Assembly (NCBI RefSeq): GCF_900188025.1
Contig: NZ_FZNO01000009.1
Coordinates: 1-64,000, forward strand
Direction of reading: 5' to 3'
DNA length: 64,000 bases
Origin: Blastococcus mobilis
Lineage (GTDB): Bacteria; Actinomycetota; Actinomycetes; Mycobacteriales; Geodermatophilaceae
In this document: positions 3,544 to 38,829 of the stretch, piece by piece
How the letters are laid out: every line of letters begins with the position of its first letter
Numbering within the stretch: position 1 is the stretch's first letter
Notes under the pieces: generated by a model
The model's database searches: none
The model's input: only the letters and a program-made list of their open reading frames with translations
What the model was told of the DNA's origin: nothing
Position numbers and translations under genes: made by a program

Positions 3544-4010
3544 CCCCTCCGGCCGACAGGTTCGAGTCGGGGACGTGTGGGACGGGACCGGCCGTGGTGG
3601 TCGCCCTTCCGGCGGTGGTCGCCGTCGCGGCGTGGTGGCTGCGCGGAAAGGACGGCGCGGACCACGCTCCGGGCACCGAGGAGGACGGCGTGGCGGGAGC
3701 CTTCGAGCGGCTGGGTGTGCGGCCCACGGACGCCGACCTGACCGTCGTGCAGTTCTCCACGGCGTTCTGCGGCCCCTGCCGCGCCACGAAGGCCCGCTTG
3801 CAGCAGCTGCAGACCACCCGCCCGGGGCTGGCCGTCGTGCAGATCGACGCCGAGAGCCATCTCCAGGAGGTCCGGGAACTGGACGTCCGCCGGACGCCGA
3901 CGCTGTTCTACCTCGACCGTGGTGGACGGCTGGTCGGGCGCAGCAGCGGCGCGCCCAGACCGGAGGAACTGACCGCTTGGGTGGACGCCCACGTCGGCGC
4001 GCACTCCTGA
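3540..4010 (+). CDS. thiX: Membrane-anchored thioredoxin (ThiX-like)
   Basis: 156 residues: a short N-terminal stretch, one hydrophobic segment (about 18-34) and a thioredoxin fold from about 65. The redox motif is CGPC at 77-80, preceded by Phe where Trp is usual (AFCGPC). The cis-Pro loop RRTPTLFY is present. Likely tethered to the membrane, with the thioredoxin domain probably outside. It precedes the cysteine leader peptide and the sulfurtransferase gene, the arrangement recalled for Rv0816c and Rv0815c. The start overlaps the DUF2993 stop. The symbol rests on synteny. Confidence 0.85.
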   Translation: MTPPADRFESGTCGTGPAVVVALPAVVAVAAWWLRGKDGADHAPGTEEDGVAGAFERLGVRPTDADLTVVQFSTAFCGPCRATKARLQQLQTTRPGLAVVQIDAESHLQEVRELDVRRTPTLFYLDRGGRLVGRSSGAPRPEELTAWVDAHVGAHS

Positions 4011-4015
4011 TCGGC

Positions 4016-4021
4016 TACTCT
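4016..4021 (+). promoter_or_regulatory. Leaderless-type -10 box (TACTCT)
   Basis: TACTCT ends 6 bases before the GTG of the cysteine leader peptide, the spacing expected when transcription begins on the start codon itself. No clear -35 is visible. It overlaps the region just after the thioredoxin stop, so sulfurtransferase expression can be initiated independently of the upstream operon. Confidence 0.6.
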
Positions 4022-4027
4022 CGCGCC

Positions 4028-4102
4028 GTGGGCATCCTGCTGACCTCGCGCCGCACAGTGGACCTGTGCCGCGTCGGCAGCTGCCTGTGTCCGACTCCCT
4101 GA
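4028..4102 (+). CDS. Cysteine-rich leader peptide (24 aa)
   Basis: A 24-codon ORF starting with GTG reads MGILLTSRRTVDL, then C-R-V-G-S-C-L-C and P-T-P. The TSRR-x-VDLCRV core is the signature of actinobacterial leader peptides found upstream of sulfur-assimilation and sulfurtransferase genes. Three Cys codons fall within eight residues near the end. In mycobacteria, leaderless cysteine-rich ORFs act as cysteine-responsive attenuators: ribosomes stall at Cys codons when cysteine is scarce. A perfect hairpin begins right at the stop codon, and the operon downstream is DUF4395-cysA-sseC. Role inferred from family and layout. Confidence 0.85.
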   Translation: MGILLTSRRTVDLCRVGSCLCPTP

Positions 4103-4121
4103 GGACGAACCCCGTTCGTCC
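4103..4121 (+). promoter_or_regulatory. Attenuator hairpin after the leader peptide
   Basis: GGACGAAC-CCC-GTTCGTCC forms a perfect 8-bp stem with a 3-base loop, starting directly after the leader stop codon (4100-4102). There is no U tract, so it could be a terminator, an RBS-sequestering stem or a pausing element. A ribosome stalled on the Cys codons would cover or shift this hairpin. Confidence 0.65.
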
Positions 4122-4160
4122 AGACGCGCCCTGACCGCCGTCCGGAGAGTCTGCTTCTTC

Positions 4161-4388
4161 ATGAGCTCCGCTGTTCCCCGTGAGGTCGACGTGCGGGGCC
4201 CGCGTTTCGCCGCGTGGGTCACGGCGGTCGTCCTCGCCGTCGCCCTGGTCCTGAACAGCGGCACGCTCGTCGCCGCCCAGGCCGCGGTCTTCGCCCTGGT
4301 GGCGGCCCTGCTCGGCGCCGCCACCGGCATCTGCCTGGGCTGCGAGTCGTACCTGCTCGCCCGGCGGGCCCTGCCGGCCCGCGCCTGA
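4161..4388 (+). CDS. Short DUF4395 membrane protein
   Basis: 75 residues. The N-terminal block VDVRGPRFAAWVTAVVLA and the C-terminal block GAATGICLGCESYLLARR are the two ends of the DUF4395 family, including the conserved CxGC pair. Family members recalled are about 130-150 residues with a hydrophilic middle and more transmembrane segments. Here that centre is missing, leaving two hydrophobic helices. No frameshift is visible, so this looks like an in-frame internal deletion or a naturally short form. It sits between the cysteine leader and the sulfurtransferase, as in other actinobacteria. Only a weak SD (GGAGAG, 11 bases upstream) is present. Confidence 0.75.
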   Translation: MSSAVPREVDVRGPRFAAWVTAVVLAVALVLNSGTLVAAQAAVFALVAALLGAATGICLGCESYLLARRALPARA

Positions 4389-4455
4389 CCGATCCGCACA
4401 CCGCGACCACACACCGACGCACACCACGCACGCACACCGATATCGGAGGAATCCC

Positions 4456-5283
4456 ATGAGCCGCACCGACGTGCTCGTCACCGCCGACTGGGCCCAGGAG
4501 AACCTGGGCAAGCCCGGTCTGGTCTTCGTCGAGGTGGACGAGGACACCAGCGCCTACGACGGCGGGCACCTCGAGGGCGCCGTCAAGCTGGACTGGAAGA
4601 AGGACCTGCAGGACCCGCTGCGCCGCGACTTCGTCGACAAGGCCGGCTTCGAGGCCCTGATGTCCTCCCGCGGGATCAGCAACGACGACACCGTCATCCT
4701 CTACGGCGGCAACAACAACTGGTTCGCCGCCTACGCGTACTGGTACTTCAAGCTCTACGGCCACCGGGACGTCAAGCTGATCGACGGCGGCCGCAAGAAG
4801 TGGGAGCTCGACGGACGCCCGCTGTCGAAGGACGCGGTGGAGCGCCCGGCCACTCAGTACAAGGCCAGCGACCCCGACCTCTCGATCCGTGCGTTCCGCG
4901 ACGAGGTCGTCGCCTCGATCGGCTCCAAGAACATCATCGACGTCCGCTCGCCCGACGAGTTCTCCGGCAAGATCCTGGCCCCGGCGCACCTGCCGCAGGA
5001 GATGGCACAGAAGGGCGGGCACGTCCCGACCGCGAAGAACATCCCGTGGAGCAAGGCGGCCAACGAGGACGGCACGTTCAAGAGCGACGAGGAGCTGGCC
5101 AAGCTCTACGACGAGCAGGGCTACGACGACAGCTTGGCGACCATCGCCTACTGCCGCATCGGGGAGCGCTCCAGCCACACCTGGTTCGTGTTGCGCGAGC
5201 TGCTCGGCAAGCCCGACGTCAAGAACTACGACGGCAGCTGGGTCGAGTACGGCTCGCTCGTCGGCGTCCCGATCGAGAAGTGA
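4456..5283 (+). CDS. cysA: Thiosulfate sulfurtransferase (rhodanese, CysA2 type)
   Basis: 275 residues with two rhodanese domains (about 5-125 inactive, 150-272 active). The active-site loop is CRIGERSS with the catalytic Cys at 233; CRxGER is the thiosulfate-specific form. It transfers sulfane sulfur to cyanide or thiol acceptors and is the mycobacterial CysA2/CysA3 type. A strong SD (GGAGGA) precedes the ATG. It is followed after 6 bases by sseC, its usual partner, and is probably controlled by the cysteine attenuator at 4016-4121. Confidence 0.92.
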   Translation: MSRTDVLVTADWAQENLGKPGLVFVEVDEDTSAYDGGHLEGAVKLDWKKDLQDPLRRDFVDKAGFEALMSSRGISNDDTVILYGGNNNWFAAYAYWYFKLYGHRDVKLIDGGRKKWELDGRPLSKDAVERPATQYKASDPDLSIRAFRDEVVASIGSKNIIDVRSPDEFSGKILAPAHLPQEMAQKGGHVPTAKNIPWSKAANEDGTFKSDEELAKLYDEQGYDDSLATIAYCRIGERSSHTWFVLRELLGKPDVKNYDGSWVEYGSLVGVPIEK

Positions 5284-5289
5284 GCTGAC

Positions 5290-5583
5290 ATGTGCGGAGC
5301 GCCGAAGCAGGACGGTTCCCTCGCGGGGATCGATCTGTCCACGCAGACGGTGATCCAGGGTTCGGTCTGGCACGACGGCGCACCCGTGGCCGGTGCCTAC
5401 GTCCGGCTGCTGGACGAGACCGACGAGTTCACCGCCGAGGTGGTGACCAGTCCGGAAGGTGAGTTCCGGTTCTTCGCCGCCCCGGGTCGGTGGAAGCTGC
5501 GCACCCTCGCCCCGGTGGGCAAGGGCGAGCGTGTCGTCTCCGCCGACGTCGGCCTCAACGAGACTACCGTCGCGATCGACTGA
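5290..5583 (+). CDS. sseC: SseC-like DUF1416 protein
   Basis: 97 residues, DUF1416. It starts MCGAPKQDGSLAGIDLS, then has a beta-sandwich-like body with GSVWHDGAPVAGAYVRLLD and PEGEFRFFAAPGRW. It is the constant neighbour of the CysA-type sulfurtransferase in actinobacteria (Rv0814c next to Rv0815c). Its biochemical role is unproven, with a sulfur-transfer accessory proposed. The stop codon is followed with no gap by repeat R1 copy A. Confidence 0.88.
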   Translation: MCGAPKQDGSLAGIDLSTQTVIQGSVWHDGAPVAGAYVRLLDETDEFTAEVVTSPEGEFRFFAAPGRWKLRTLAPVGKGERVVSADVGLNETTVAID

Positions 5584-5637
5584 GGACCCCGTCCTCCTCA
5601 CCCCTCGCAGGCCCGGGGTGAGCCTCCGGACGGGGCC
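5584..5637 (+). repeat. Hairpin repeat R1, copy A
   Basis: A 54-bp imperfect palindrome: GGACCCCGTCC at the left, GGACGGGGCC at the right (outer stem with one bulged A), and an inner perfect CTCACCCC / GGGGTGAG stem. It starts at the base after the sseC stop. Copies at 15643-15696, 38780-38829 and 46487-46540 also sit just behind a gene. It may serve as terminator or mRNA-end stabiliser between the convergent sseC and cupin genes. Confidence 0.8.
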
Positions 5638-5642
5638 GTGTC

Positions 5643-5670
5643 GCCCGTCCCGGCTTCGGCCGGGACGGGC
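5643..5670. terminator. Perfect UUCG-capped hairpin between convergent genes
   Basis: GCCCGTCCCGGC-TTCG-GCCGGGACGGGC is a perfect 12-bp stem closed by a TTCG tetraloop. It stands between sseC (plus) and the cupin gene (minus), so it can serve as a bidirectional terminator. There is no T run, as is common in high-GC actinobacteria. Confidence 0.75.
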
Positions 5671-5679
5671 GCTGTCGGC

Positions 5680-6048
5680 TCACTCGACGGGCGGGGCGGA
5701 GTCGTCGTCGCCGGGCAGCGGCGGGACCGGGCTCTGCACGATCACCGCCACCATCCCGGCGGAGGAGCCACTGGCGTGCTCCTCGCCGGGCTCCCAGAGC
5801 ACGGCGTCGCCCGGACCCAGCGGGACCGCGTGTCCGTCGGGGCCGGCGGCCCAGCCCTCACCGCTGACCACAGCCAGGAGCTGCCACACGCGGGTGGGGT
5901 GCCGGCCGATCCGCGACCGCGCGGCGAACTCGACCACGTCGACCGCGAACCCCTCGACCGGCTGCGTGACGCGGGCGTGGGGCCGGAGGGTCACGCCGGT
6001 GCTGCTGAACGACGACAAGGTCGTGGACGACAACGCGACGCGGCGCAT
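5680..6048 (-). CDS. Small cupin-domain protein
   Basis: About 122 residues forming one cupin barrel: RIGRHPTRVWQLLAVVSGEGW and LGPGDAVLWEPGEEHASG correspond to cupin motifs 1 and 2, although motif 1 lacks the full HxH metal pair. The substrate is unknown. An ATG at 6066 would add six residues; neither start has a good SD. It converges with sseC. Confidence 0.7.
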   Translation of the reverse strand: MRRVALSSTTLSSFSSTGVTLRPHARVTQPVEGFAVDVVEFAARSRIGRHPTRVWQLLAVVSGEGWAAGPDGHAVPLGPGDAVLWEPGEEHASGSSAGMVAVIVQSPVPPLPGDDDSAPPVE

Positions 6049-6161
6049 CGGCCGACGGTAGGGCATGCGCCCACGTCGGAGGCCGGGTTCCTGCGTCGAA
6101 CAGCAGGGCAGCCGCGCCGAGGGCACCCACTCACAGGACCGGAGCCGACGTCGTCGTGGGA

Positions 6162-35163: not shown

Positions 35164-35975
35164 TGGCCGAGCCGGACTGGAACCCGGACACGGGAGGACG
35201 CTCACTCGCCGAGATCCTGCGCGAGGCCGGCATCGAGTCCGCCAACCGGGCCGCCCGTCGCCGGTCCTGGGACGATCCCGAGGAGACCGGGATCCGCCAG
35301 CGGCGGGCCGCGGCCGCGGCCGCCGACGGCGTCGCCGGCCCGACCGGGTACGGACGACGCCGCGGCGACCAGTCCGGCGCGACGCCCCCGGCCGTGGAGC
35401 GGCGGCAGCATCCCGACCGGCGCCAGCCCCGGATCGCCGCGCCCGACTCGTCGACGGCGGCCATTCCCGGCCTGCGGCCGGATCGCAAACCCGGCGTCCC
35501 CGCCGGCTCGGCGATGCCCAGCGCGCCGGTTCCCCTCCGCGGGCCCCAGGTCTCCGAGCCGGTCGGCCAGCGGGCAGCACAGCGGGCCACCTCCCGCCCG
35601 GCCCGGGAACCGGACCATCCCTCCACCGGGCCGATCCCGGTGGTCCGGCCCGACCAGATCGCCGCCGACCTCGACGACGACGCCACGCCGCGGGAGAGCG
35701 CGCTGGCCTGGCTGCGGTTCGCCGGCGAGCTGGTCATCGCACTGGCCGCAGGCGTCGGCGTCTACTTCGCCGCCACCGTGCTGTGGGAGATCGTCCCGCA
35801 CGTCGCCGTCCTGCTCGCCCCCCTCGCCGTGACCGGGCTGGTCACGGGGGTCGGCGTCTGGCGGCAGCGCCAGGGCCGGGAGCCCGTGGGCCCCCGGCTG
35901 CTGGCGATCCTGGTGTTCGCCGGGACGCTGCTGACGATCGCGCCCGCGGCCGGACTGCTCGCCGCCGGCTCCTGA
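35163..35975 (+). CDS. Membrane protein with long disordered N-terminus (Rv0497-like)
   Basis: 270 residues. The first ~170 are polar, Arg/Pro-rich and probably disordered, with a short conserved start GRSLAEILREAGIES. Three hydrophobic segments follow (ELVIALAAGVGVYFAATVLW, VAVLLAPLAVTGLVTGVGVW, LLAILVFAGTLLTIAPAAGL). Matches Rv0497 in position, downstream of ppx. Function unknown. Confidence 0.8.
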   Translation: MAEPDWNPDTGGRSLAEILREAGIESANRAARRRSWDDPEETGIRQRRAAAAAADGVAGPTGYGRRRGDQSGATPPAVERRQHPDRRQPRIAAPDSSTAAIPGLRPDRKPGVPAGSAMPSAPVPLRGPQVSEPVGQRAAQRATSRPAREPDHPSTGPIPVVRPDQIAADLDDDATPRESALAWLRFAGELVIALAAGVGVYFAATVLWEIVPHVAVLLAPLAVTGLVTGVGVWRQRQGREPVGPRLLAILVFAGTLLTIAPAAGLLAAGS

Positions 35976-35987
35976 CGCGGCGGCGGC

Positions 35988-36551
35988 TCAGCCGCCGGTC
36001 CCCTCCTCCTCCGCGCGCGCGAACTCCTCGAGGATGGCGGCGCTGAACGCGTCGAGGTCGTCGGGGTTGCGGCTGGTGATCAGGTTGCCGTCGACGACGA
36101 CCTCCTCGTCCACCCAGTCGGCGCCGGCGTTCCGGAGGTCGGTCGCCAGCGACGGCCACGACGTCATGCGGCGGCCGTGCACCACCCCGGCCTCGATGAG
36201 CACCCAGGGGGCGTGGCAGATCGCCGCCACCGGCTTGCCGGTTTCGAAGAAGGACGTCACGAAGGCCACGGCATCGGAGTCGGCACGGAGGAAGTCGCCG
36301 TTGATGACGCCGCCGGGCAGGACCAGGGCTCCGTAGCCGTCGGGGTCGGCGGTGCTGACGACGGCGTCGACCTGCTTCTTGTCGCCCTTCTCGATGTGGT
36401 CGTAGGCGGTGATCGTGCCGGTCCGGAGGGAGACCAGCTCCGGCTCGGCGCCGGCCTCCTCGAGCGCCTGCCACGGCCGGTCGAGCTCGACCTGCTCCAC
36501 TCCGTCCGTCGCCAGCACGGCCACTTTCATCCCGCTCAGCTCTCCTGCCAT
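35988..36551 (-). CDS. DJ-1/PfpI family protein (YhbO/PfpI subgroup)
   Basis: 187 residues: MKVAVLATDGVEQVELDRPW at the start, LVLPGGVINGDFLRAD, nucleophile Cys in AAICHAPWVLIEAGVVHGR with the Glu of VEQVE, and SWPSLATDLRNAGADWVDEE. Members act as glyoxalase III, deglycase or stress chaperone; the exact activity is debated. ATG 36551 fits homologous N-termini; ATG 36531 is possible. Convergent with the membrane protein gene. Confidence 0.88.
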   Translation of the reverse strand: MAGELSGMKVAVLATDGVEQVELDRPWQALEEAGAEPELVSLRTGTITAYDHIEKGDKKQVDAVVSTADPDGYGALVLPGGVINGDFLRADSDAVAFVTSFFETGKPVAAICHAPWVLIEAGVVHGRRMTSWPSLATDLRNAGADWVDEEVVVDGNLITSRNPDDLDAFSAAILEEFARAEEEGTGG

Positions 36552-36610
36552 GGGGCGGCGGCTACCCGGGCCCCGGACGGGACACACACCGGCGCACTAC
36601 GGTTTCCGGC

Positions 36611-37318
36611 GTGCCCGTGCGCCCCGGATCCGAGCTGCGCCGCCTGTGGGCGGGACGGCTGTCCGGTCGCGTCCTGGCCCGGCCGCTGCCCGCCGTGGCG
36701 GACGTGGTGCGGGTCGCCGGCGCGCTCGTGGACGACGGTTGCACGGTGGCCCTGGAGCACGTGCCCCGGCCGGGGGAGACCTCCGCTCCCGCGCTGCTCG
36801 AGCTCGTCCGCGAAGTGTCCGCCGCCGGCCTGGCCGCCGCCTGCGAGCTGAGCGTTCCGGTCGACACCGACGGCGCGCGGACGGTGGCCGCCGCGGCCCT
36901 CGACGCCGGGCTCGCGGTCGTCCTGGCCGGACCGGCCGCTGACGTCGACGCCGTCGGCCTGCCCGGCGCCGGCGTCATCGTTCGCGCGGGCGAGCCCGGC
37001 GCCGAGACCCGGTGCCGGGAGCTGGCCGGCGGACACGTCCGCCTGGTCCGGGGGCCGGGGCGCCGCGGCGCCACCGACCTCGCGTTCGTGCGCTGCCTCA
37101 ACGTCCTCATGGCCGCGGAGGGGCGCCCGGGCATCGCGGTGTCCGATCCGCGCCTGATCGCCATCGCCGGGGAGCGGGCGGCCTGGAACGGCCGCACGCC
37201 CGACAGCTGGGAGCTCGTCATGCCCTACGGAGTCCTGATCCACGAGCAGCGGCGGCTGGTCGCCGCCGGAGACACGGTCCGCGTGGCCGTGACCCAGGTG
37301 CCGGGTGGCCGCTCGTGA
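36611..37318 (+). CDS. Degenerate proline dehydrogenase-like protein
   Basis: 235 residues. The layout follows a ProDH TIM barrel but short and eroded: VALEHVPRPGETSAPALLEL (VxxxHLGE-like), VRLVRGPGRRG (RLVKGAY-like), LAFVRCLNVLMAAEGRPGIAVSDPRLIAIA (normally ATHDxxLI) and WELVMPYGVLIHEQRRLVAAGDTVRVAV (normally FEfQMLYGVR...VRVYVP). Catalytic Lys, Tyr and the FAD-site Arg pairs are mostly absent. It is coupled to proC by GTGA, the opposite reaction in proline metabolism. Likely non-catalytic or altered. TACGGT 7 bases before the GTG indicates a leaderless start. Confidence 0.65.
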   Translation: MPVRPGSELRRLWAGRLSGRVLARPLPAVADVVRVAGALVDDGCTVALEHVPRPGETSAPALLELVREVSAAGLAAACELSVPVDTDGARTVAAAALDAGLAVVLAGPAADVDAVGLPGAGVIVRAGEPGAETRCRELAGGHVRLVRGPGRRGATDLAFVRCLNVLMAAEGRPGIAVSDPRLIAIAGERAAWNGRTPDSWELVMPYGVLIHEQRRLVAAGDTVRVAVTQVPGGRS

Positions 37319-38133
37319 CCGCCTCGGGTCGTCGTGGCCTCGCCATCATCGGTGGCGGGAAGATCGGTGAGGCCCTGCTGTCGGGGCTGGTCCGCCGGGG
37401 AGGACCGGACGGCATCCTGGTGTGCGAGCGCAGCCCCGAGCGGGCTGCCCAGTTGGCCGAGCGCTACGGGGTGGGCGCCGTCGACCTCGGTGAGGCCGCC
37501 GTCCGCGCGCGGGTCCTGCTGCTCGCGGTCAAGCCTCAGGACATCGACGTCCTGCTGAGTCGGCTGAGCCAGCACGTGGACACCGGCCACCTCGTCGTCT
37601 CCGTGGCCGCCGGGGTGCCGACGAAGCGGATCGAGGCCGCGCTGCCCGACGGCATCCCGGTCGTCCGGGTCATGCCCAACACCCCGGCTCTGGTGGACGA
37701 GGGCATGAGCGTGCTCTCGGCGGGTGCGCACGCCGGGGACGAGCACCTCGACGAGGCGGAGGCGCTGCTGGCCGCCGTGGGACGGGTGCGCCGGGTGCCG
37801 GAGGACCAGCAGGACGCCGTCACGGCGCTCTCGGGGAGCGGGCCGGCGTACTTCTTCTACCTGGTCGAGGCGATGGTGGACGCCGGCATCCTGCTCGGAC
37901 TGCCGCGGACGCTGGCCGTCGACCTGATCGTGCAGACGGCGCTGGGGTCGGCGGTGATGATGCGCGACTCCGGCGAGCACCCGGTCCAGTTGCGAGAGGC
38001 GGTCACCAGTCCCGGGGGGACGACGATCGCCGCCGTGCGGGAGCTGGAGCGGCACGGTGTTCGGGCGGCGCTGATCGCGGCGATCGAGGCCGCGCACGCC
38101 CGCTCGGTCGAGCTCGGACGCGACAAGGCCTGA
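37315..38133 (+). CDS. proC: Pyrroline-5-carboxylate reductase
   Basis: 272 residues. NADPH Rossmann start LAIIGGGKIGEALLSGLV, VRVMPNTPALVDEGMSVLS, and the C-terminal signature ALSGSGPAYFFYLVEAMVDA with SPGGTTIAAVRELE. Last step of proline synthesis. GTG overlaps the stop of the ProDH-like gene. Matches Rv0500. Confidence 0.95.
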   Translation: MTASGRRGLAIIGGGKIGEALLSGLVRRGGPDGILVCERSPERAAQLAERYGVGAVDLGEAAVRARVLLLAVKPQDIDVLLSRLSQHVDTGHLVVSVAAGVPTKRIEAALPDGIPVVRVMPNTPALVDEGMSVLSAGAHAGDEHLDEAEALLAAVGRVRRVPEDQQDAVTALSGSGPAYFFYLVEAMVDAGILLGLPRTLAVDLIVQTALGSAVMMRDSGEHPVQLREAVTSPGGTTIAAVRELERHGVRAALIAAIEAAHARSVELGRDKA

Positions 38134-38435
38134 GGTTCAGGGGGTCGCTGCGACGGCTCGGGCGGCTGGCGCGCGGCCGGGCACGGTAGTCCACATGTCG
38201 ACCCGACGCCAGCACTCTCCGTCATCGACTCGTGACGGTGTCGCGAAACTCGCCGCACAACAGTTCTCGGGTGTTTCATACGTGTAGTTCTGCCGAGGAC
38301 GGACCGGTCCGCCTGTTCGATTCACCCATCGCACCAGTCACGCCTGTCCCCTTACGCTCTGTGGCAGCGCATGCGTGTTCAGTTGCCGGTGGGGAAGCCG
38401 GCGCCACGACATGAGCTAGGTCCGGAGACGAAGAC
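38134..38435 (+). other. Intergenic region upstream of the HTH gene
   Basis: 302 bases with no credible ORF. It contains TACGCT at 38353-38358, a possible -10 giving a leader of about 70 bases before ATG 38436, and an SD-like GGAG 9 bases before the ATG. An AT-richer stretch near 38260-38300 (GTGTTTCATACGTGTAG) is unusual for this window and may be a regulator site. Nothing else recognised. Confidence 0.4.
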
Positions 38436-38777
38436 ATGACCATGCCCCAGCGCGCTGCCGCCCCCGCGATGTCCCGTCCGGGCGTGCCCGGCCCCCGGCC
38501 CGTCGGCCGCCCCATGGCCGCCACGATGGCCCGCCCCGTTCCGCCTCAGCACCCGGCCGCCATGCCGCTCGGCCGCCCCAGTGTCCCGGCCCCGCGTGCC
38601 GCGGTGACGTTCCTGACCGTCGCCGAGGTCGCCGCGATGATGCGCGTCTCGAAGATGACCGTGTACCGCCTCGTCCACGCCGGCGAGCTCTCCGCCGTCC
38701 GCGTCGGCCGTTCCTTCCGCGTGCCGGAGCGGGCCGTGCAGGACTACCTGCGCGACGCCTACACCGACATCGCGTGA
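38436..38777 (+). CDS. Excisionase-like (MerR-fold) HTH protein, Rv0500A-like
   Basis: 113 residues. The first ~55 are Pro/Ala/Met-rich and disordered; the C-terminal 55 form a winged HTH: FLTVAEVAAMMRVSKMTVYR then GRSFRVPERAVQDYLRDAY. This is the excisionase/BldC-type fold found between proC and the bS22 gene in actinobacteria. It is chromosomal, not phage. The long disordered N-terminus is larger than in Rv0500A. Followed after 2 bases by repeat R1 copy C. Confidence 0.85.
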   Translation: MTMPQRAAAPAMSRPGVPGPRPVGRPMAATMARPVPPQHPAAMPLGRPSVPAPRAAVTFLTVAEVAAMMRVSKMTVYRLVHAGELSAVRVGRSFRVPERAVQDYLRDAYTDIA

Positions 38778-38779
38778 GA

Positions 38780-38829
38780 GGACCCCGTCCTCCTCATCCC
38801 TCGCTCCGGGTGAGCCTCTGGACGGGGCC
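38780..38829 (+). repeat. Hairpin repeat R1, copy C
   Basis: GGACCCCGTCC ... GGACGGGGCC, 50 bases, same orientation as copy A, starting 2 bases after the HTH gene stop. Inner arms CTCATCCC / GGGTGAG. Confidence 0.75.

Follow-up and report, generated by a model that had tools for sequence, protein, structure and literature searches.

A decayed proline dehydrogenase gene before proC in Geodermatophilaceae, with a possible translation-initiation element for proC in its 3' part

Introduction

What is the role of a gene that resembles a proline dehydrogenase (ProDH), lacks catalytic positions and stands directly before proC, the gene for pyrroline-5-carboxylate (P5C) reductase? The question is raised by a locus of Blastococcus (family Geodermatophilaceae), which we studied within a window of 64,000 nucleotides, the whole stretch of DNA analysed. 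An earlier note on this DNA had described the 235-residue product as an inactive ProDH homologue and had proposed that it is a regulatory or scaffolding partner of ProC, for example in P5C channelling or proline sensing.

Pseudoenzymes are known as a class of proteins that keep the fold of an enzyme, have lost its catalytic residues and evolve under purifying selection. Translational coupling by overlapping stop and start codons and by short leader ORFs is a general mechanism in bacteria. Among the papers searched, none combined "proline dehydrogenase" and "pseudoenzyme", and there was no evident match for a ProDH-proC operon in actinobacteria, for Geodermatophilaceae with ProDH or proC, or for internal initiation, coupling and pseudogenes.

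Results and discussion

The eroded gene and its neighbours

The features of the locus are listed in Table 1. The identity of proC is certain (TIGR00112). The TGA of the eroded gene (37316-37318) overlaps the GTG of proC (37315-37317) by 4 nt, as GTGA, and an NTGA overlap at proC is found in all 38 full-length eroded orthologues. Further upstream lie a Ppx/GppA phosphatase gene and a membrane protein gene, the latter named from a weak DUF2157 match only, and then the divergent DJ-1/PfpI gene, which has the same position in eroded relatives. Loci with an intact ProDH carry no DJ-1/PfpI gene behind the membrane protein gene; it may have entered the locus before or during erosion. An Rfam scan of 35800-38800 gave no match at the gathering threshold.

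Table 1. Features at the proC locus, in window coordinates.
Feature	Position	Strand	Remarks
DJ-1/PfpI-family gene, divergent, next to the eroded gene on its upstream side	35988..36587	-	PF01965, E 1.6e-51
TACGGT, -10-like element (TANNNT)	36598..36603	+	Spacing to the eroded gene's GTG, 7 nt
Eroded ProDH-derived pseudoenzyme gene	36611..37318	+	GTG start, 235 codons plus stop, 235 aa
Strip of suppressed synonymous variation, codons 191-210	37181..37240	+	Observed/expected synonymous heterozygosity 0.39-0.50
TGGGAG, Shine-Dalgarno-like hexamer, codons W200-E201	37208..37213	+	In-frame TGGGAG-N6-[AG]TG
Proposed leader ORF	37220..37318	+	Internal in-frame ATG (37220-37222), 32 codons; TGA overlaps proC start
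proC, pyrroline-5-carboxylate reductase	37315..38133	+	GTG start; TIGR00112, E 1.1e-83; P5CR_dimer, E 4.6e-40

Proline dehydrogenase ancestry

Taken alone, the sequence of the window protein makes a weak case for ProDH ancestry. The NCBIfam model ProDh_Thermus matches it weakly and over residues 172-227 only (E 1.6e-4), and a phmmer search of the PDB gives T. thermophilus ProDH at E 0.21. The earlier note had suggested an HMM comparison of the protein with PF01619 and a structural model. The profile half of this proposal failed, as no Pfam-A family, PF01619 included, matches at E <= 1; the structural half held, as the best matches are ProDH and not an unrelated fold. An AlphaFold2 model was built from four sequences and is of mediocre quality (mean pLDDT 65.8, below 50 at residues 185-235). 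Its top eight Foldseek matches are all ProDH or PutA (E 1.4e-7 to 3.2e-4), with T. thermophilus ProDH the best (E 1.4e-7), and VIA-align also matches it to ProDH/PutA structures, among them D. radiodurans ProDH (4h6r) with Z 15.2 and rmsd 4.1 over 196 residues. The window protein is thus modelled as a ProDH beta/alpha barrel.

The locus also exists with an intact enzyme. A ProDH of 309 residues occupies this position before proC in 8 of the 107 family genomes, belonging to three other genera, and in nine loci of the order that come from other families (L020, L024-L028, L030, L171 and L173; this count covers fetched loci only). In related actinobacteria (G020, G023, G025, G048) the order is likewise ppx and/or the membrane protein gene, ProDH, proC and an HTH gene. 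Residues 152-227 of the eroded protein are up to 64% identical to the intact proC-linked ProDH.

In a ProDH tree that included 16 of the 38 full-length eroded copies, these group as a single clade (SH-aLRT 100) whose branch is long (1.45), and the tree allows either proC-linked or P5C dehydrogenase-linked ProDH as its sister; gene position (synteny) and the local identity make the proC-linked form the probable ancestor. ProDH ancestry is firm from the structure and from the alignment with intact same-locus orthologues, and the comparisons show that the eroded gene arose by decay of an intact ProDH, which would originally have preceded proC. Degradative and biosynthetic genes of proline metabolism thus lie side by side in related actinobacteria, and the degradative half has been dismantled in one family.

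Loss of catalytic residues

For T. thermophilus ProDH, roles have been assigned to the substrate-binding Lys99, to Arg288 and Arg289 and to the YxxRR of helix 8 (PMC6017737), and for the E. coli enzyme to Lys329, Arg555 and Arg556 (PMC10651016). We compared these positions across the 38 full-length eroded orthologues, with counts based on the five commonest letters of each alignment column only. Lys is found at the Lys99 position in none of them and Pro in 31, including the window protein. The helix-8 Tyr and the Gln of W-E-x-Q-M are likewise absent from all 38, and the two helix-8 Arg are kept in 17 and 16. Each of these residues is present in 10/10 aligned intact copies; the ProDH of the intact pair keeps all catalytic motifs, unlike the eroded gene.

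The window protein lacks the YxxRR part. By alignment, several positions expected to contact FAD are changed, and most of the cofactor contacts are probably missing. Four residues are kept in 38/38 eroded orthologues: the Arg at what is presumably position 184 of T. thermophilus ProDH (a number that agrees with the alignment), the Asp of THD, the Glu of WE (WEY) and the Arg of VRV. Compared with monofunctional ProDH (PF01619; T. thermophilus 2g37/2ekg, D. radiodurans 4h6q), the window protein shares the predicted beta/alpha fold and finds its best structural matches there; it differs in lacking the substrate Lys, the YxxRR helix and a Pfam match, and in being about 75 residues shorter. Judged by its residues, it is a catalytically dead ProDH, and the proline-oxidase job would be gone.

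Selection on the residual protein

Selection was measured by maximum likelihood, under a codon model with position-specific base frequencies that was fitted to 17 independent pairs (17 of the 19 nearest pairs, the two with a ProC divergence above 0.17 being dropped). For the eroded gene, omega was 0.298 at residues 1-115, 0.158 at residues 116-190 and 0.125 at residues 211-227, as compared with 0.045 for ProC and 0.119 for DJ-1 (the latter from 11 pairs). When neutral evolution of the eroded gene was simulated, the six sets gave 0.84-1.14, and 2dlnL against omega = 1 was 225 for residues 1-115 and 390 for residues 116-190. All gaps were multiples of three in 14 of the 17 close pairs, three of these 14 being gapless; gap lengths that were not multiples of three occurred in three divergent pairs, one of which includes the window gene. 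GC3 of the full-length copies is 0.86-0.96. The full-length eroded copies are under purifying selection. The product is weakly constrained, dispensable and often lost; the purifying selection on the protein makes it a pseudoenzyme and not simply junk. It resembles pseudoenzymes in its kept fold, its lost catalytic residues and this selection.

Constraint is lower in short remnants of the gene: compared with their nearest full-length copies they gave an omega of 0.485, where full-length pairs gave 0.173 for those residues, and four of the six remnant pairs had values of 0.59-0.89. A former estimate by NG86, which ignores codon bias, had put dN/dS at 0.72 for residues 1-115 (the other value being 0.37) and suggested a near-neutral N-terminal part; it was superseded by the codon model.

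The description given in the earlier note was thus borne out as far as the ORF, the stop-start overlap, the fold and the residue losses are concerned. The translational coupling that it names is its own deduction from the 4-nt overlap. Its inactive homologue is also upheld, as a pseudoenzyme: the Lys and the YxxRR Tyr are missing throughout and the protein is under purifying selection.

Distribution in the family

The family sample comprised 112 genomes. Five had no ProC match and were left out, which leaves 107 genomes. Upstream of proC, these carry an intact ProDH (8 genomes), a full-length eroded gene of 206-262 codons (38), a short remnant (6) or no gene (53); in two more, G068 and G099, the region is cut by a contig end and they were counted separately. 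The full-length eroded copies come from four genera (13, 14, 10 and 1 genomes), so that the pair with proC is conserved across genera, as the earlier note had proposed to check. On the ProC tree, where 47 of the 104 inner branches have less than 80% support, the state without a gene requires 11 changes, of which at least 5 are forced by well-supported branches. The eroded protein and ProC are not always retained together, and ProC does not need the eroded protein, because it is absent from 53/107 family genomes and reduced to remnants in six more.

A Shine-Dalgarno-like string and start codon in the 3' part

Synonymous variation is near normal over most of the eroded gene and low in one strip. 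The four adjacent five-codon bins of codons 191-210 have observed/expected ratios of 0.39-0.50, the lowest of all 47 bins, the next lowest being 0.63. A separate calculation with ProC as the yardstick gave a ratio of 0.56 for codons 196-210. Strong synonymous conservation of the whole C-terminus, a former candidate from NG86, was rejected: an amino-acid-matched ProC control traced it mostly to codon composition, except at codons 196-210.

The strip contains the Shine-Dalgarno-like hexamer TGGGAG and, six nucleotides on, an in-frame ATG. The pattern TGGGAG-N6-[AG]TG is present in frame in 38/38 full-length copies (ATG in 37, GTG in 1) and in 6/6 short remnants, always together with the NTGA overlap. 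A candidate initiation unit is thus complete on paper, with a Shine-Dalgarno-like site, a start codon and an ORF ending on the proC start. In the genomes with full-length copies, mean predicted pairing with the anti-Shine-Dalgarno sequence is -6.6 kcal/mol at the internal site and -7.2 at the start of proC itself, while random sites average -3.9; RNA accessibility barely differs (0.39 at the internal site, 0.28 at the proC start, 0.29 at random sites). The arrangement resembles known translational coupling in its NTGA overlap and in the Shine-Dalgarno-led short ORF directly before proC. It differs in that leader and Shine-Dalgarno sequence apparently derive from codons of what was once an enzyme gene. 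The TGGGAG form is found in 8/8 intact copies inside the family and in 0/9 outside it, and the string probably arose within Geodermatophilaceae.

At codon 207 (37229-37231), GGA is used in 22 of the 25 copies with glycine and AGA in 6 of the 8 with arginine, which is unusual at such a GC content.

At the other end of the gene, CACTANGGT occurs near the first start in 30 of the 38 full-length orthologues, with a spacing of 6-7 nt in 26 of the 30. In M. tuberculosis, the centre of TANNNT boxes lies 7-12 bp upstream of the start site, and many mRNAs are leaderless (PMC3898074). A leaderless mRNA starting at the TACGGT box is, by analogy, the probable transcript of the eroded gene. Deletion of the gene body would then bring the internal initiation site near the mRNA 5' end. 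A scan for sigma-70-type promoters and terminators found none, the promoter scan being one that is not made for actinobacterial promoters.

The element in genomes without the gene

The 53 gene-less genomes were at first taken for clean deletions. This was dropped after a profile scan and reading of the sequences, which show that the element is kept in part of them. We scanned the region before proC with a weight matrix of codons 196-207, using 149 upstream regions of other genes as controls. The element scores above the maximum of all controls in 15/53 genomes; against random sequences that already hold GGGAG and ATG at the right spacing, P is below 0.01 in 13/53 and below 0.05 in 15/53. When the sequences were read by eye, the element was recognised in 19/53 genomes, in two forms, and no trace of it was recognised in the remaining 34.

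In the leader form (seven genomes: G011, G024, G066, G072, G077, G093, G101), the ATG opens an ORF of 13-20 codons with an NTGA overlap with proC; G066 has this form without GGGAG. In four of these genomes (G072, G077, G093, G101), reading by eye shows the element's ATG to be the first start met downstream of the promoter-like box, and there the ORF of 17-20 codons ends on the proC start. In the in-frame form (twelve genomes: G019, G034, G036, G078, G083, G084, G086, G087, G088, G091, G103, G104), the element's start codon is likely to be the first codon of proC itself. Ten of these twelve genomes form one clade, and G086, G087, G091 and G104 were assigned by kinship and not by score (P 0.10-0.21, G087 not being scored).

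In two further loci, L036 (G006) and L111 (G075), proC is apparently leaderless and starts at, or close to, what used to be the first codon of the gene now deleted. This may be a third way for proC to regain a start.

Alternative explanations

The explanation that we prefer, with moderate confidence, is that a decayed ProDH gene encodes a weakly constrained residual protein and holds, in its 3' part, a putative translation-initiation element for proC. The codons of the old ProDH motif W-E-x-x-M, which read TGGGAG-N6-ATG, would serve as Shine-Dalgarno-like site and start codon. We infer that ribosomes loading at the internal ATG (37220) would pass on to proC through the short ORF that ends on its start. 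Once the rest of the gene is deleted, the element would stay behind as a leader of 13-20 codons overlapping proC, or as proC's own start. Three points weigh against giving the element too large a role. The sequence does not require an internal start, because proC's own start is Shine-Dalgarno-like as well (-7.2 vs -6.6); W-E-x-x-M in a GC-rich gene yields a Shine-Dalgarno-like string anyway, which counts against reading it as an element; and the element is dispensable too, because no trace was recognised in 34/53 gene-less genomes. In addition, omega at residues 211-227 and 116-190 shows constraint on the protein itself, for which the element does not account.

This constraint is what a protein kept for binding ProC, the second ProDH or a metabolite, and so tuning proline/P5C flux, would account for, with the internal Shine-Dalgarno sequence and ATG incidental. 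Purifying selection along the whole protein, retention of the Arg184-position Arg, the THD Asp, the WEY Glu and the VRV Arg in 38/38 copies, the stop-start overlap in as many and in-frame indels in most close pairs all agree with such a partner. We nevertheless regard it as doubtful: the gene is missing or reduced in 59/107 family genomes, the substrate Lys and YxxRR Tyr are missing in 38/38 copies, and a binding role leaves unexplained both the synonymous suppression and the survival of the Shine-Dalgarno/ATG piece alone. The regulatory or scaffolding role put forward in the earlier note is not supported, as only adjacency and overlap with proC were seen; with the proline-binding residues gone, the old site is unlikely to sense proline, and nothing in the analysis supports P5C channelling. 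For part of the conserved C-terminal segment, a role in the RNA is the better explanation: it would hold a ribosome-binding site and a start codon, which outlast the gene.

Slow neutral decay would make the gene a functionless vestige seen at various stages, its frame surviving through the rarity of stops in GC-rich DNA and the purging of polar effects on proC. The graded series from intact to absent fits this, as do the NG86 value for residues 1-115 (codon-bias-naive) and the high omega of most short remnants, but full-length copies at 0.30 and 0.16 stand far from the simulated neutral copies and reject omega = 1, and their GC3 also speaks against it; we consider neutral decay improbable. It is also improbable, in our estimate, that the strip at codons 191-210 is a DNA operator or a second proC promoter instead of a ribosome-binding site. 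The strip is conserved at the DNA level and does reach 5' of the Shine-Dalgarno-like string (codons 191-198), but every full-length copy keeps a start codon at position 204, ATG or GTG, the piece sits right at the proC start or in an overlapping leader ORF in reduced loci, and the sigma-70-type scan, with its limits for actinobacteria, gave no promoter.

Under the preferred explanation of a residual protein with an embedded initiation element, the family might preserve each of the steps: intact enzyme, pseudoenzyme with an embedded initiation site, remnant, leader of 13-20 codons, and proC starting on the old methionine codon, the ProDH W-E-x-x-M having been converted to the ribosome-binding site and start of proC. 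We hold the chances for and against this full sequence of events to be about even. It would provide, within one family, a series of intermediates in which a protein-coding gene turns into the 5' leader of its neighbour. The conserved tail of a dying gene may reflect the signals of the next gene and not protein function, which calls for caution when "pseudoenzyme partners" are named from gene neighbourhood.

Other proline dehydrogenase copies

A whole-genome PF01619 search of the source genome gave a sole match, an intact ProDH on contig C35, from which ProDH activity is expected. This gene (G000:C35, L058 4655-7271) lies directly before a gene for a 541-residue dehydrogenase-like protein, with a divergent regulator-like ORF upstream. 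The 541-residue protein, read as P5C dehydrogenase and used as the P5C dehydrogenase query, and the regulator-like ORF were both named by our own reading. The C35-type ProDH has this dehydrogenase behind it in the sampled relatives too. Five genomes (G016, G061, G063, G076, G100), at 96-99% completeness, gave no PF01619 match, and in four of them (G061, G063, G076, G100) proC is preceded by an eroded copy of full length. These four, lacking a PF01619 match, show that some genomes with the eroded gene have no backup ProDH.

In L057 (G051; 3637-6060), an intact ProDH, HTH and galE follow in the usual order, but the stretch between them has no match to proC. The family genomes G010, G085, G099, G103 and G119 (L165-L169) hold additional ProDH paralogues; these are divergent, with 32-40% identity to the C35 copy, and three of them lie beside a dehydrogenase-like gene on the opposite strand.
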